From NCBI GenBank assembly GCA_019348355.1, contig JAHWJP010000013.1, forward strand, positions 6,993-39,086: a DNA stretch of 32,094 bases, given 5' to 3'. Each line of letters starts with the position of its first letter. Position 1 is the stretch's first letter. Under the pieces are notes generated by a model. The model saw only the letters and a list, made by a program, of their open reading frames with translations, was not told the origin of the DNA and searched no databases. This document shows positions 8,323 to 16,598 of the stretch, one piece after another. This DNA comes from Actinomycetota bacterium. GTDB taxonomy: Bacteria > Actinomycetota > Actinomycetes > Mycobacteriales > SCTD01. Both the position numbers and the translations under genes were made by a program.

Positions 8323-9190
<868 letters not shown>

Positions 9191-9988: not shown

Positions 9989-11368
9989 GTGGCGGTGGAG
10001 CTCGTCGACTACCTGAGGGTGCTCCGGCGGCGGTGGGCGCTGATCGCGCTCGCCGCCTTCGTCTGCGCCGGTTCGGCTGTCGGGTTCTCCCTGCAGCAGA
10101 CGCCGGTGTACGAGGCGACGACCCGCCTGGTGGTGTCCGGCTCCGCCGGCGGGAGCGCCGCCGACGAGGTCGCCCAGCGGCAGCTGGCCGTGCAGCGGGC
10201 CACTTCCTACGCGCAGTTCGCCTCGACGCCACCGGTGGTCGACGAGACGGTGGAGAGCGCGGGGCTGGACCCGCAGGCCGGGCGCCCGGAGGTGACCGGC
10301 ACCGCCGACGGCGCGGCGCCGTTCCTCACCGTCACGGTCGTCGACGCTGAGCCGGAGCGGGCCGCGGCCGTGGCCAACGCCTTCGCGGAGGTGCTGCCGA
10401 CAGCCGTCGCGCAGCTCGAGGGAGCTTCGGGCACCGGTCAGGCCCGGTTGACGGTGCTGTCGGCGGCGTCCACCCCGCAGGACCCGGTCCGACCCAAGCC
10501 GGTCCGCAACGGTGGGATCGGGCTGGCGCTGGGGCTGATGCTCGGGGTCGGCTCGGCCTTCCTGAAGGAGGCGCTGGACCGGAGCTACAAGGCTGTCGAG
10601 CAGCTCGAAGACGAGACGGGGCTGTCCGTCCTCGGCGTGGTCCCGCAGGAGCTCGCGGGCGTCAGCCTGCCGACCCTCACTCACCCCACCAGCAACCGCG
10701 CGGAGGCCTACCGGACCGTCCGCACCAACGTGCAGTTCGCCGGCCCGCCGCACAGCCTCAAGACGATCCTGGTCACGAGCGCGACCGCCGCCGAGGGCAA
10801 GACCACGCTGACGACCAATCTGGCCGTCGCGTTCGCCGCGACCGGCCAGTCGGTGGTGCTGGTGGACGGCGACCTGCGTCGGCGCCAGGTGGGCAAGGCC
10901 TTCGGGCTCGAGGACGAGGGACCCGGGCTGGCGGGGGTGCTCGCCGGCTGGGCGCCGCTCGACGAGGCGCTGCGGACCGTGGAGACGGCCCGGCTGGCGA
11001 TCCTGCCGGGCGGATCCACCCCGGAGAACCCCAGCGAGCTGCTCGGCAGCGCCCGGATGGCCGAGCTGCTCAAGGAGCTGGGCCAGCTCTTCGAGGTGGT
11101 GCTGGTGGACAGCCCGCCGGTCCTGCCGGTGACCGATCCGCTGGTGCTGGCGGTCAACGCGACCGGCGTCGTGCTCGTCGTCCGGCTGGGGGAGACCTCG
11201 CGGGAGCGGCTGCGGCGAACGATCGGCAGCCTGCAGAAGCTCGACGTCCCGCTGCTCGGCCTGGCGGCCAACGGCGCGGTGGCGTCACAGGACCCGGCGT
11301 ACGGCTACGGCTACGCCTACGGCTACACCGGCAAGGAGGCCAGGTCGAGAAAGCGGCACAGGAAGTGA
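9989..11368 (+). CDS. Polysaccharide co-polymerase / bacterial tyrosine autokinase (Wzz-BY-kinase)
   Basis: A 459-residue fusion of a Wzz chain-length domain and a cytoplasmic BY-kinase. The first membrane helix is about residues 16-36 and the second about 173-192, with the extracytoplasmic Wzz loop between them. The kinase has Walker A SATAAEGKTT (264-273), Walker A' VVLVDGDLRRR (289-299) and Walker B VVLVDSPP (370-377). The C-terminal tyrosine cluster, with Tyr at 438, 440, 442, 444 and 446, is the autophosphorylation tail, followed by a basic end. Known members control polymer length and export through cycles of tail phosphorylation. The start is GTG 9989 or GTG 9995 (a GAGG precedes the latter). 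It is the first gene of a plus-strand run; two decayed copies lie downstream. Confidence 0.93.
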   Translation: MAVELVDYLRVLRRRWALIALAAFVCAGSAVGFSLQQTPVYEATTRLVVSGSAGGSAADEVAQRQLAVQRATSYAQFASTPPVVDETVESAGLDPQAGRPEVTGTADGAAPFLTVTVVDAEPERAAAVANAFAEVLPTAVAQLEGASGTGQARLTVLSAASTPQDPVRPKPVRNGGIGLALGLMLGVGSAFLKEALDRSYKAVEQLEDETGLSVLGVVPQELAGVSLPTLTHPTSNRAEAYRTVRTNVQFAGPPHSLKTILVTSATAAEGKTTLTTNLAVAFAATGQSVVLVDGDLRRRQVGKAFGLEDEGPGLAGVLAGWAPLDEALRTVETARLAILPGGSTPENPSELLGSARMAELLKELGQLFEVVLVDSPPVLPVTDPLVLAVNATGVVLVVRLGETSRERLRRTIGSLQKLDVPLLGLAANGAVASQDPAYGYGYAYGYTGKEARSRKRHRK

Positions 11369-11413
11369 CGGCAGGCGCCCAGGCACGATCTGGCCCCGAG
11401 CCAGGGAGTACGA

Positions 11414-12553
11414 GTGGCGGTCGCTGAGCGGCGCGCGGACCCGGCGGCCGGCGAGCATGTGGCGGACCTGCGGGTCGCCGTCGTGCACGACTACCTGACC
11501 CAGCGAGGCGGTGCCGAGCGGGTGGCGCTGGTGCTGCTGGACACCTTCCCGGGCGCGCGGATGATCACCTCGGTGCACGACCCGGAGGCGGTCAGACTGC
11601 GCGGCGGCGATCCCGTGGTGGAGACCAGCTGGCTGAACCGGGTGCCGGCGCTGCGCCGCGACCCGCGTCGGGCTCTGCCGCTGCTGCCGGGCGCGTTCGA
11701 CCGGATGCCCGTGCGGGACGTGGACGCCGTGGTGTGCAGCTCCACCGGCTTCGCGCACGGCATCCCGGCCAAAGCCCCCAAGGTCGTCTACTGCCACAAC
11801 CCGCCGCGCTGGCTGTACCAGCCGGAGGACTACCTGCACGACCAGCCGCTGCCGGTCCGCGCTGCGCTGACCGCGCTGCGGCCACGGCTGCTCCGCTGGG
11901 ACCGGCGGGCGGCCGCCAGTGCCGACCGCTACCTGGTGAACTCCACGGTCGTACGGGAGCGGGTGCGCCGGGTCTACGGCATCGACGCGCAGGTGCTCGC
12001 GCCGCCGGTGAGCAACAACCCGGAGCTGCGGCAGGAGCCGGTTTCCGGCCTGGAGCCGGGCTTCTTCCTGGCGATCGGCCGGGCCCGCGGCTACAAGAAC
12101 ATCGACCTGACGTGCGAGGCGTTCCGCCGGCTACCCGGCGAGCGGCTGGTCGTGGTCGGAGGGCTGCCGGACGGGGACTGGCCGGACCGAATCATGGGTC
12201 TGACGGGGGTGCCGGACGCCCAGCTGCGGTGGCTGTACGCGAACTGCGCGGCGACGGTGGCCGTCGCCCACGAGGACTTCGGCCTGACGCCGCTGGAAGG
12301 CAACGCCCTGGGCAGCCCGGCGCTGTGCCTGCGGGCCGGCGGCTACCTGGACACCATGGTCGAAGGCGTCAACGGCCTCTACATCGAGGAGCTGACACCC
12401 GAGGCCGTGGTGACCGCCGTCCAGCGGCTGCAGGCCGACCCGCTGGACGAGGCGGAGATCCGGCGGCACGTCGATCGCTACAGCGTGCGCGCCTTCAAGG
12501 GGCAGCTGCGCGAGATCGTGGGGGATGTGGTGGCAGGTTCACGCCCGGGATGA
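11414..12553 (+). CDS. Glycosyltransferase family 4 (WbaZ-like)
   Basis: A 379-residue GT-B-fold enzyme. The N-terminal domain has VAVVHDYLTQRGGAERVAL (about 21-39) and APKVVYCHNPPRWLYQ (about 119-134). The C-terminal donor-binding domain has FFLAIGRARGYKNIDL and the E-x7-E type motif HEDFGLTPLEGNALG. This set is typical of mannosyltransferases of the WbaZ type, but the donor here is not proven. It presumably adds one sugar to the lipid-linked repeat unit at the inner face of the membrane. The start GTG at 11414 lies 45 bp after the kinase gene. The kinase plus this gene form the unit that was later duplicated at 12605-14438. It appears intact, with a family-typical length. Confidence 0.92.
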   Translation: MAVAERRADPAAGEHVADLRVAVVHDYLTQRGGAERVALVLLDTFPGARMITSVHDPEAVRLRGGDPVVETSWLNRVPALRRDPRRALPLLPGAFDRMPVRDVDAVVCSSTGFAHGIPAKAPKVVYCHNPPRWLYQPEDYLHDQPLPVRAALTALRPRLLRWDRRAAASADRYLVNSTVVRERVRRVYGIDAQVLAPPVSNNPELRQEPVSGLEPGFFLAIGRARGYKNIDLTCEAFRRLPGERLVVVGGLPDGDWPDRIMGLTGVPDAQLRWLYANCAATVAVAHEDFGLTPLEGNALGSPALCLRAGGYLDTMVEGVNGLYIEELTPEAVVTAVQRLQADPLDEAEIRRHVDRYSVRAFKGQLREIVGDVVAGSRPG

Positions 12554-12604
12554 GGTTGCTAGGGCAGGGTAGGGCCGGTTCGGCCGCGTGAGGGAGAGGT
12601 CAGG

Positions 12605-13968
12605 GTGGAGTTGCGGGATCACTTCAGAGTGCCGCGTGCGCCCTCCGGAACTGACAGCGCTCGCCGCTGTCGTGCTTAGACAGAGCCGTCGGCTTTCTGC
12701 TCCAGTAGACGCTGGCGTACGAGGCGACTGCGAGGCTGGAGGTCTCCCGGCGCCGCTGCCGACGAGATGAACGTGCCGCGCCAATCCTCCGTGGGATTGG
12801 CCACGACGTGCGCCCTCGCCACGACGGTGCCCGGCGTCGGCGAGGCACTGGCCGGTGCCGGCGGCGATTCGGGAGCCGATCGTCCCAAGGTCGTCGCCGT
12901 TGCCGAGCCCAGTGCGCCCTTCCTGTCAGTCACCGACGCAGTTGCCTACGGCTACCCGGCGCGCGCGGCGGCGGTCGCCAACGCCTACGCCACGACAACG
13001 CCCGGAGCCGTGGCGCGGCTGGAGGGTCGGTCGGCAGATGCCGCCGACCTCACCGTGCTGACACCGGCCGCCGCGTTGGTCGAACCGGCGCGTCCCCAGC
13101 CGGTGCGCAACGGTGGTATCGGTTTGGCGCTCGGGCTGATGCTGGGCGCCGGCTCCGTCTTCCTGCGGGAAGCGCTGCGCGGCAGCTACAAGTACGGCGA
13201 GCAGCTCGATGAGGAGACCGGGCCGTCCGTGCTCGGGGTCGTTCCGCAGGAGCTGTCCGGGGTCGACCTGCCGACGATGACGAAGCCGACCAGCAACCGG
13301 GCCGGGGCCTACCGCACCATCCGCACCAACGTGTAGTTCGCCGGGCCGGCGCACAGCCTCAATACGATCCTGATCACCAGCGCCACCGCCGGCGACGGCA
13401 AGACCTCGGTGGCCACCAACCTGGCGGTGGCGTTCGCGGCGACGGGACAGTCGGTCGTGCTGGTCGACGGCGACCTGCGCCGCCACCGCGTCGGCGAGGC
13501 CTTCGGCCTTCCGAACGACGGCCCGGGGTTGGTGGGCGTGCTCGCCGGCTGGGCCACGCTCGACGACGCGCTGCGCTCGGTCCAGCCAGGGCAGCTGGCA
13601 GTGCTGCCGGCCGGGTCCACGCGGGACAACCCGAGCGAGCTGCTCGGCAGCACCGCGATGTCTCAGCTGCTCAAGGAGCTGGGCGAGCTCTTCGAGGTCG
13701 TGGTGGTCGACAGTCCGCCGGTGCTGCCCGTGACCGACCCGCTGGTGCTGGCTGTGAACGCCACCGGAGTGGTGGTCGTCGTGCGGCTCGGCGAGACCAG
13801 CCGCGAGCAGTTACGGCGGACGATCGGGAGCCTGCAGAAGCTAGGGGTGCCGCTGCTCGGGGTGGTCGCGAACGGCGCGGTGGCGTCGAGCGGTCCGGCT
13901 TACGGGTATGGGTACACGTACGGCGCGAAGGTAAGCGGGGGCACGGGAAGAGGCGGGAGGGGCGCTGA
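12605..13968 (+). pseudogene. Second Wzz/BY-kinase copy, inactivated
   Basis: This region parallels the kinase at 9989-11368 over most of its length, starting GTG-GAG-TTG after GAGGGAGAGG. An early amber codon at 12706-12708 replaces the second Gln of the LQQT motif. Part of the Wzz loop is missing or scrambled between about 12740 and 12880. A second amber at 13334-13336 replaces the Gln of TNVQF. Downstream, the kinase core is well preserved: SATAGDGKTS, VVLVDGDLRRHR, VVVVDSPPVLPV and a tail with YGYGYTYG, but its natural stop has shifted out of frame. A residual open frame starting near 13409 would begin within the Walker A region and is unlikely to be functional. A duplicate kinase that has decayed. 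Confidence 0.88.
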
Positions 13969-13976
13969 CGGCTCGA

Positions 13977-14438
13977 GTGGAGCAGCGCGACCGCTCCGGC
14001 AGCGCCTCACCGGCGGCGCGCGAACGGGGCGGCGCGGCCGGGTTGTGGCGGACCTGCGGGCCGCGGCCGTACGTGCTTGACCCAGCGTACCGACGCGGAG
14101 CGGGTGGCGCTGGTACTGCTGGACACCTTCCCCGGCGCGCGAATGACCACGTCAGTGCGCAACCCGGAGGCGGTCAGCCTGCGCGGCCGCGACCCGGGAG
14201 TGGAGACCAGCTGCTGAACCGGGTGCCGGCGCTGCGCCGCACCCTTGCCGTGTTCTGCCGCTGCTGCCGGTCGCTTTCGACCGGATGTGCGTGCAGGACG
14301 TCGACGCCGTGCTGTGCAACTCCACCGGCCTCGCGCACGGCACCCCCGACGCGCCGAAGGTCGTCTACTGCCACAACCTGCCGCATTGGCTCTACCAGCT
14401 CAAGGACTACCTGCGCGACCAGTCGTCGCCCGTCCGCG
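13977..14438 (+). pseudogene. Second copy of the family 4 glycosyltransferase, truncated by an IS element
   Basis: Mirrors the 5' 40% of the glycosyltransferase at 11414, in the same position behind a kinase copy. Recognisable blocks are VADLR, the ERVALVLLDTFPGAR equivalent, LNRVPALRR, QDVDAVLCNSTGLAHG and APKVVYCHNLPHWLYQ up to DQSSPVRA. Several frame changes occur between 14070 and 14290. Homology to the intact gene stops at about 14438, where IS21-type transposase sequence begins. The C-terminal donor-binding domain is absent, so no activity is possible. Confidence 0.85.
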
Positions 14439-14582
14439 CGTCTGCGAGGAAGCAGTTGGACGTCATCACCGCCTACCGCCAGGTCGGCACCTCCCGCGGC
14501 GCCGCCGAGATGTGCGGCGTCACCCACAGGACCGTCAAGAGGATCATCGAGAAGGACCAGGCCGCCGCTGCTCGGGTCGAGC
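14439..14582 (+). pseudogene. istA: IstA transposase, N-terminal fragment
   Basis: About 48 residues, including KQLDVITAYRQVGTSRG and VTHRTVKRIIEKDQ, form the helix-turn-helix start of an IS21 IstA. The DDE catalytic domain is wholly missing; the reading passes directly into istB sequence by deletion. It is fused in frame with the truncated glycosyltransferase relic. Confidence 0.75.
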
Positions 14583-14589
14583 GCCAAAA

Positions 14590-15243
14590 TTCTACGAGAG
14601 CGTGCGGGCGCTGGTCCAGGTCGAGATCACGGCCCGGGACGCCAACAACACCCGGCTACGCAGCAAGCAGGCCAGCTTCCCGGCCGTCAAGACGATCGAG
14701 CAGTTCGGCCTGGCCGCCAGCAGCATCGCGCCGCAGACCTGGGCCTACCTCACCTCGCTGAGGTGGATCGCGGCGAAGGAGAACATCACCCTTCATCGGC
14801 CCGGCCGGAACCGGCAAGAGCCACGCACAGATCGCGCTCGGCCACGCGCCGTCGCAACCGGCCTGCAGGTTCGCTACTTCACCGCAGCCGAGCTGGTCGA
14901 GAACCTCTACCGCGGCTTGGACGACAACAGCGTCGGTAAGCTCATCGAGACCGCCCTACGCAACGACCAGATCATCCGCGACGAGGTCGGGTTCGCACCG
15001 CTGGACAGCACCGGCAGCCAACTGCTGTTCCGCTTCGTCGCCGCCGCCTACGAACGCCGCAGCCTCGCGATCGCCAGCCACTGGCCGTTCGAGGAATGGG
15101 GCCGCTTCCTGCCCGACCACAGCACCGCCGTCAGCCTGCTCGACCGCCTCCTACACCACAACAACGTCGTCGCCACCGACGGCGAGAGCTACCGAATGCG
15201 CGAAGCCCGCAGCCGGTCAGGAGGCCGCCCCTCGAAGCACTAA
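14590..15243 (+). pseudogene. istB: IstB ATP-binding helper, frameshifted
   Basis: Starts inside the protein (VRALVQVEITARDANN) and runs to the normal end. The C-terminal part is well preserved: FTAAELVENLYRG, IIRDEVGFAPLD (Walker B), RRSLAIASHWPFEEWGRF, AVSLLDRLLHHNNVV and DGESYRMREARSR. Walker A (IGPAGTGKSH) is present only in a second frame between about 14790 and 14845: one base is out before it and one compensates after it. The current frame therefore passes through the ATP site as unrelated residues. No intact start. Inactive as it stands. Confidence 0.82.
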
Positions 15244-15260
15244 CCCATCCCGCGAGGTGA

Positions 15261-15306
15261 GGACTTTTGTTGGCCACCAGCGGGGACCACGAGTTGGCCA
15301 GTGACA
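15261..15306 (+). repeat. IS21-type right terminal repeats
   Basis: Two GGCCA-containing repeat words, TTGGCCACCAGCGGGGACC and AGTTGGCCAGTGACA, lie in tandem after istB, as in the multiple terminal repeats bound by IstA. The outer word ends at 15306 with the conserved CA dinucleotide. Confidence 0.5.
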
Positions 15307-15675
15307 TGCAGCGTGACCGATCCCTTTCCTGGTTCAGTAGGCACGACCTGCCCGTCATGCTCGTGAGGCCGCGGCCGGGTAGTTGTCGGTGAGGCTGCGG
15401 GCCTTCCGCCCGTACACCCTGGCAGGCAACCAACGGCTCCATGGCGTCCCGGGCTCTCCTTCGGAAGACGACAAAGCGCGATGCCGCACGACAGAGGCAC
15501 GCCGAGGTCGGGCAGGCCGGTGGCTCCACGAGGGGGTGCCCCGTCGCGAAAGGTCACTTATAATCCCGCATGACCTGGCAGGCTCCGGACCTCAGCCGCG
15601 GGGAGCACTCCCACCATGCCCGACACCCAGCCCCGGTCCGCAGGACCGCGGCTGCCGACCTGACCCGAGGCGCCC
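15307..15675. other. Unassigned segment between IS end and third kinase remnant
   Basis: No gene recognised. Several short frames occur on both strands, but none has a domain or a plausible start. A perfect TATAAT word at 15559-15564 (within TTATAAT) stands out against the GC-rich background but lacks a good -35 at the right distance. By position this DNA should be either leftover glycosyltransferase/kinase sequence decayed beyond recognition or a second insertion remnant. Confidence 0.4.
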
Positions 15676-15894
15676 GTGCCGAGCCCTAGTGAACTGACGA
15701 TGCTCGTCGTGCACCTCGGCGTGACCTGTCGCAAGCAGCTCGGGAGCACCCTCGGCAGCTTGCGCAAGCTCGGGGTTCCGCTGCTCGGCCTGGCGGCCAA
15801 CGGCTCCGTGGCGTCGCGCGACCCGGCCTACACGTACGGCTACTACGGCGCCAACGACAAGGCCGGCCACAGCAGGAAGAGGAGCCCCCGGTGA
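15676..15894 (+). pseudogene. Third Wzz/BY-kinase remnant, C-terminal tail only
   Basis: The last ~65 codons correspond to the end of the kinase at 9989: LVVHLGVTCRKQLGSTLGSL, KLGVPLLGLAANGSVAS, then a tyrosine tail YTYGYYG and a basic end SRKRSPR. The run coding for PLLGLAANG is identical at base level to the intact copy. No ATP-binding site is present. The stop overlaps the methyltransferase start (GTGA), showing that a full kinase gene probably once preceded and was translationally coupled to the methyltransferase. A short peptide could still be made from the GTG at 15676, but that is unproven. Confidence 0.8.
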
Positions 15895-16598
15895 CGACCC
15901 CCAGTATCTCGCCGCGCGCCGCCGAGCATCGGCCGGTGGAGCTGTCGGGCGGCCACTACAGCGCGCCACGGGCCGAGCTGCTGCCGCTCGTCCCGTCCTC
16001 CGCGACCCGCGTCCTTGACGTCGGCTGCGGAGCCGGGGGGTTCGGCCGCAGCCTGCTGGCCGCACGACCGGCGGTGGAGCTGTGGGGGGTGGAGGCGAAC
16101 CCTGAGGCCGCCGCCCTCGCAGCCGCGGACTACCAGCGGGTGGTGATCGGCTTCTTCCCCGATGCCTCGTCGAAGCTGCCCACGCAGTACTTCGACCTGA
16201 TCTGCTTCAACGACGTCCTCGAGCACATGCTCGACCCGCAGTCGGCCGTCGGGGCAGCGACCGCGCACCTGGCGCCCGGCGGATCGCTGTTCGCCAGCAT
16301 CCCGAACGTCCGGCACTTCAGCGTCCTGTGGCCGCTGCTGACCCGCGGCCGGTGGGACTACGCGGACGACGGCCTGCTCGACCGGACCCATGTCCACTTC
16401 TTCACGAGGGTCACGATGGTCGAGCTGTTCGAGCGCTCCGGGTGGCGGATCGACCGGGTCGTCGGCATCAACCGGTCCCGGTGGCCCGAGGCCGGCAAGG
16501 ACACCTGGAAGACGAAGCTCGCCAGCGTCGTGACACGAGGGCGGAGTGATGACTTCTTCTTCACCCAGTACGTTCTCCAGGCCACACCCGCGAGCTAG
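15891..16598 (+). CDS. SAM-dependent class I methyltransferase
   Basis: The 235-residue product has the Rossmann methyltransferase motifs VLDVGCGAGGFGRSL (about 42-56, motif I), an acidic residue ending strand 2 in LWGVEANPEA, FDLICFNDVLEHMLDP (motif IV and post-I region) and APGGSLFASIPN. The DVLEHM/GGSL style is that of small-molecule or sugar methyltransferases found in EPS and O-antigen loci. It probably methylates a sugar hydroxyl of the repeat unit. GTG start overlapping the upstream kinase remnant's TGA by four bases. Five bases later the next glycosyltransferase begins, so the two are co-transcribed. The substrate is unknown. Confidence 0.93.
   Translation: MTTPSISPRAAEHRPVELSGGHYSAPRAELLPLVPSSATRVLDVGCGAGGFGRSLLAARPAVELWGVEANPEAAALAAADYQRVVIGFFPDASSKLPTQYFDLICFNDVLEHMLDPQSAVGAATAHLAPGGSLFASIPNVRHFSVLWPLLTRGRWDYADDGLLDRTHVHFFTRVTMVELFERSGWRIDRVVGINRSRWPEAGKDTWKTKLASVVTRGRSDDFFFTQYVLQATPAS

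Follow-up and report, generated by a model that had tools for sequence, protein, structure and literature searches.

Decayed copies of a Wzz/BY-kinase and glycosyltransferase pair, with an IS21 remnant, at the edge of an actinobacterial exopolysaccharide locus

The window, a 32,094-nucleotide stretch of actinobacterial DNA, carries three copies of a gene for a Wzz/BY-kinase (K1, psi-K2 and psi-K3), of which K1 is open and the other two are decayed (Table 1). K1 and psi-K2 are each followed by a glycosyltransferase gene (GT1 and the decayed psi-GT2), and a remnant of an IS21-family element, absent from the original prediction, begins where psi-GT2 breaks off. This arrangement probably arose by copying of the kinase gene or of the kinase–glycosyltransferase (K–GT) unit within the lineage, followed by decay of the copies, arrival of an IS21 element in GT2 and deletions, with K1 being retained. 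It is a case of ordinary gene duplication and decay and involves no new mechanism.

Table 1. Features around the kinase copies (window coordinates).
Feature	Position	Strand	Remarks
4-Hydroxyphenylpyruvate dioxygenase gene fragment	8483-8710	-	~75 residues, E 1e-32 to 1t47; adjoins psi-DUF4012; upstream of K1
psi-DUF4012 gene	8715-9142	+	two PF13196 pieces in different frames; upstream of K1
K1, Wzz (polysaccharide co-polymerase) + BY-kinase fusion, Tyr-rich tail	9989-11368	+	open, domain-complete
GT1, GT4-type glycosyltransferase	11414-12553	+	open; PF00534 E 1e-14, PF13439 E 1e-7
psi-K2, full-length decayed kinase copy	~12605-13968	+	from alignment to K1
psi-GT2, 5' 40% of decayed glycosyltransferase copy	14035-14439	+	85% nt identical to GT1
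Decayed IS21-family element, 5' part of istA joined to istB	14440-15306	+	PF01695 E 5.6e-38, HTH_23
Filler DNA, ~380 bp	15307-15685		between IS21 remnant and psi-K3
psi-K3, C-terminal ~68 codons of a third kinase copy, with Tyr-rich tail	~15686-15894	+	matches K1 at 76% (nt) over 165 bases
Class I SAM methyltransferase	15891-16598	+	PF13489 E 7e-23; adjoins psi-K3

The window was taken from a 39-kb contig of an actinobacterial draft MAG (88% complete, 2.97 Mb, 259 contigs). The region belongs to the left part of an exopolysaccharide locus and is the edge of a locus of the Wzx/Wzy type; besides numerous glycosyltransferases, the locus encodes a flippase, a probable polymerase and a polyprenyl glycosylphosphotransferase. 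The comparison sample comprised 24 genomes of the family, and the search with the methyltransferase covered 149 other genomes; changes were polarised with G004, which belongs to the same genus. Upstream of K1, the dioxygenase fragment has longer orthologues (86-88%) in three further members of the genus, but none was found in this incomplete genome. Intact counterparts of the adjoining psi-DUF4012 lie near kinase genes on another contig of the same genome (C83) and in two relatives (G004:C256 and G008:C9). C83 also carries a second, intact but distant (39%) Wzz/BY-kinase (L039, G000:C83:403-1758), so that two or more polysaccharide loci are likely in this genome. A kinase homologue from a different genus within the family was interrupted by an in-frame TAG (L042, G012:C34:83483-84847), which suggests that decayed extra BY-kinases recur in the family.

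Both members of the intact pair were open and domain-complete, as originally claimed. The Wzz domain of K1 was recognised at residues 3-74 (PF02706, E 4e-9, 37 bits against a cut-off of 25.5) and a tyrosine autokinase domain of the eps family at residues 239-445 (TIGR01007, 157 bits against a cut-off of 108). The protein ends in a tyrosine-rich tail, DPAYGYGYAYGYTGK, and its matches in the PDB were the BceF, CapAB and Wzc kinases. Its periplasmic part is short (~130 residues) relative to that of proteobacterial Wzc. The G004 counterparts of K1 and GT1 (the latter a 62% amino acid match) are single-copy genes lying 7 kb apart on opposite strands.

The second pair had been described as full-length and dead, which proved correct for the kinase and incorrect for its partner. 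Psi-K2 aligned with K1 at 77.3% identity over 1542 bases, in a stretch extending into the glycosyltransferase genes, and at 70% over 100 bases in the N-terminal (Wzz) part. Two TAG stops, at ~12705 and 13334, stand where K1 has CAG at both positions, and the reading frame is further disrupted by shifts of +1, -2 and -8 near the N-terminus and of -1 in the Tyr tail. Psi-GT2, which contains frameshifts of 4, 1 and 1 bases, matches positions 11470-11862 of GT1 only, so that only the first ~40% of the gene is represented, and ends abruptly at 14439 because the IS21 element begins there. The case is cautionary: what inspection by eye takes for a full-length dead pair can conceal a transposon.

The IS21 remnant encodes an IstB helper ATPase (PF01695, 131 bits against a cut-off of 24.1), and its istB is frameshifted. 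A longer IS21 element in G004 (contig C85), carrying NF033546 IstA and NF038214 IstB, matched the window in two blocks, at 87% over 14440-14628 (189 bases) and at 92% over 14603-15308. About 1.49 kb of istA, lying between these blocks in G004, is gone from the window, leaving only an N-terminal IstA fragment; this gap and the overlap of the blocks by 26 bases are the pattern expected of a deletion between short repeats. The right terminal repeat was kept (15261-15306), and no left end was found in the window. Compared with the IS21 family, then, the sequence has an istA/istB origin evident from its 87-92% nucleotide identity to the G004 element but is missing its left end and ~1.49 kb of istA, and its istB is broken. 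Since the left end and most of IstA are missing, we classed it as an IS21 remnant rather than an IS21 element; judged from its sequence, it should be incapable of moving on its own.

The filler DNA behind the remnant had no homologue among GT2, the kinase copies or the relatives' DNA, except for one match of 22 bases between 15430-15451 and 15797-15818 in the K3 tail (91%, E 0.003), which is either chance or a tiny further remnant. Beyond it, the predicted third kinase tail in front of the methyltransferase was confirmed. Over positions 15701-15862, identity was 76% with K1 and 75% with K2 (E ~1e-30), and the score of 121 bits was far above the maximum of 38 bits in 1000 shuffles; at the protein level, the K3 and K1 tails shared 61% of their residues. 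The tail forms an open frame of 72 codons with a Tyr cluster. Likewise, the reported overlap was present, the psi-K3 stop and the methyltransferase start sharing GTGA at 15891-15894. The methyltransferase had a single match in the 149 other genomes, at 39% identity, and no kinase–methyltransferase pair was found in relatives among these genomes, so that the originally proposed status of the third copy as first neighbour of the methyltransferase is unsupported by these comparisons.

The relationship of the copies was analysed with a codon-partitioned tree of K1, K2, K3, the kinases of G004, G019, G079 and G117, and this genome's own second kinase. The three copies formed one group, with 100% bootstrap on the separating branch, and topologies joining G004 to any one of them were rejected in AU tests (p = 0.004, 0.005 and 0.0002, from 5000 resamplings, fewer than the 10000 that the program advises). 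Among the sampled genomes, the copies are each other's closest relatives: the best kinase match outside them, from G004, showed 58% amino acid identity, compared with 70% between K1 and K2, and K2 as a query found nothing closer than K1. Kinases as close as E 1e-90 occurred in only three genomes of the class. K1–GT1 and K2–GT2 consist of homologous genes in the same order and on the same strand, an order seen in this genome alone among those sampled, and no tandem K–GT arrangement was seen in the family and order genomes searched. No copy was placed with the kinases of a different species, and the part of the original prediction that invoked duplication followed by loss agrees with a single clade outside which all sampled relatives' kinases fall. 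Because it excludes the sampled relatives, this clade suggests that K1, K2 and K3 are lineage-specific copies, a grouping that fits duplication, or else imports from an unsampled close relative.

Other parts of that prediction fared less well. The 45 tail codons did not settle the branching order within K1, K2 and K3, and no recombination junction was found, leaving repeated unequal crossing-over without support. Decay in ordered stages along the array was not borne out either, as the copies were about equally distant from each other, with third codon position differences in the tail of 20/45 (K1–K2), 17/45 (K1–K3) and 16/45 (K2–K3).

Codon position patterns suggest that the two members of the second unit died at different times. 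In the BY-kinase part, K1 and K2 differed by ~13%, 8% and 37% at codon positions 1, 2 and 3, a pattern indicating that both genes were functional for long, whereas the corresponding values of ~9%, 16% and 20% for GT1 and GT2 indicate relaxed constraint. When changes at positions 1 and 2 were polarised by G004, 25 fell on GT2 and 4 on GT1 (p = 1e-4), and 34 fell on K2 and 16 on K1 (p = 0.015). The third-position bias was kept in K2 and absent from GT2, and the patterns of K2 and GT2 differed (p = 0.003); an unpolarised pairwise comparison of the K and GT pairs gave a weaker result (p = 0.07). By a rough estimate, K2 would have escaped selection during about 25% of the period after the split; this is a guide only, because third positions are near saturation against G004, which makes polarisation there noisy. 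Psi-GT2 thus appears to have been unconstrained since the split or soon after, and purifying selection, on this rough timing, would have acted on K2 during most of the intervening period.

The raw third-position divergence was larger for K (0.37) than for GT (0.21; p = 0.002), and GT was also slower against G004. This silent divergence had hinted that GT2 is younger than K2 through gene conversion, a signal that was gone after outgroup scaling. A model with proportional branches for K and GT was not rejected (2dlnL 1.41, df 2, LRT not significant), so that one joint K–GT duplication is compatible with the data. Third-position differences between K1 and K2 were distributed along the gene, at 3-11 per 20 codons, with no identical tract. 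It is conceivable, and at best a tentative proposal, that two related polysaccharide co-polymerase kinases ran in one locus for a time, K2 being selected long after GT2 had died, possibly for two chain lengths that were later abandoned.

These data were weighed against other explanations. As K1 and K2 share only 70% of their residues, the same picture would result if a K–GT allele had been imported from a close relative outside the sample; in such a palimpsest of allele swaps, K2–GT2 and K3–methyltransferase would be leftovers of older versions of the locus, replaced by alleles imported from closely related strains. The nearly equal distances among the three kinase tails would fit alleles of related strains, the downstream neighbours differ (GT1 behind K1, the methyltransferase behind K3), and remnant genes from capsule-locus exchange are known, such as the truncated galE2 of Neisseria meningitidis (PMC5349592). 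However, no sampled genome has a kinase nearer to K2 or K3 than K1, and K and GT are adjacent in both K1–GT1 and K2–GT2, an order found in no sampled relative, which favours copying of a unit. We consider allele swaps possible but doubtful.

The decayed copies might instead be a functional reservoir, in which recombination of K1 with the dead copies, or expressed fragments such as the K2 kinase domain and the K3 Tyr tail, would vary or tune chain length. The open K3 tail with its Tyr cluster, overlapping the methyltransferase start, and the selection on K2 during most of its life would suit such a role, but a short open frame is expected at the GC content of such DNA, psi-K2 is interrupted by two nonsense mutations as well as by several frameshifts, the longest kinase frame left in it (from 13409) starts inside the Walker A motif, and the spread-out K1–K2 divergence includes no identical tract of the gene-conversion kind. 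We therefore regard this role as very improbable, and the original suggestion that the array is a way to vary chain-length control finds no evidence here, with two of the three copies dead. Even an assembly artefact was considered, since a strain chimaera might arise in a metagenome bin and the genome is an incomplete draft in many contigs. Yet the lesions are typical of pseudogenes, copies that are 75-77% identical are not easily collapsed or mis-joined, all of them lie on the single 39-kb contig in a region with no Ns, and a search of the rest of the genome revealed no second near-identical kinase copy. Assembly collapse is thus no concern, and a chimaera is extremely unlikely.

Under the preferred reading of copying within the lineage, the Wzz/BY-kinase gene would have undergone two or more rounds of copying, of which one or more probably carried the neighbouring glycosyltransferase along as a K–GT unit. 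K1–GT1 would have been retained. Selection on GT2 appears to have ceased with the split or shortly afterwards, and K2, probably maintained by purifying selection over most of the subsequent period, would have died later through nonsense and frameshift mutations. An IS21 element presumably came to sit in GT2; later deletions would have taken its left end and most of istA, and the same or earlier deletions the 3' part of GT2 and all of K3 except its tail. IS21 insertion with later deletions thereby offers a concrete alternative explanation of why GT2 is truncated and K3 has lost its front, although the 380-bp filler and the lost IS left end obscure the deletion history. K1 alone is now the predicted polysaccharide co-polymerase and autokinase of the locus.

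Together, these results make the array a clear small case of how genes for chain-length regulators arise and die at the margin of an exopolysaccharide locus, in which the partner genes of one duplicated unit appear to have died at different times, with an IS21 remnant at the break. Remnants of capsule-locus genes have been described for galE1/galE2 of Neisseria meningitidis, where galE2 is truncated (PMC5349592), and the present case is similar in that the margin of a surface polysaccharide locus holds an intact gene together with a truncated relative. It differs in comprising two decayed kinase copies, a broken glycosyltransferase gene and an IS21 remnant, and in showing no inversion or switching. 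K1 itself resembles the BY-kinases of the Wzc, CapAB and BceF type in Wzx/Wzy loci in its Wzz N-terminal domain, its kinase domain with Walker A, A' and B motifs and its Tyr-rich tail, whereas the locus differs from those systems in that only one of its three kinase copies is intact.
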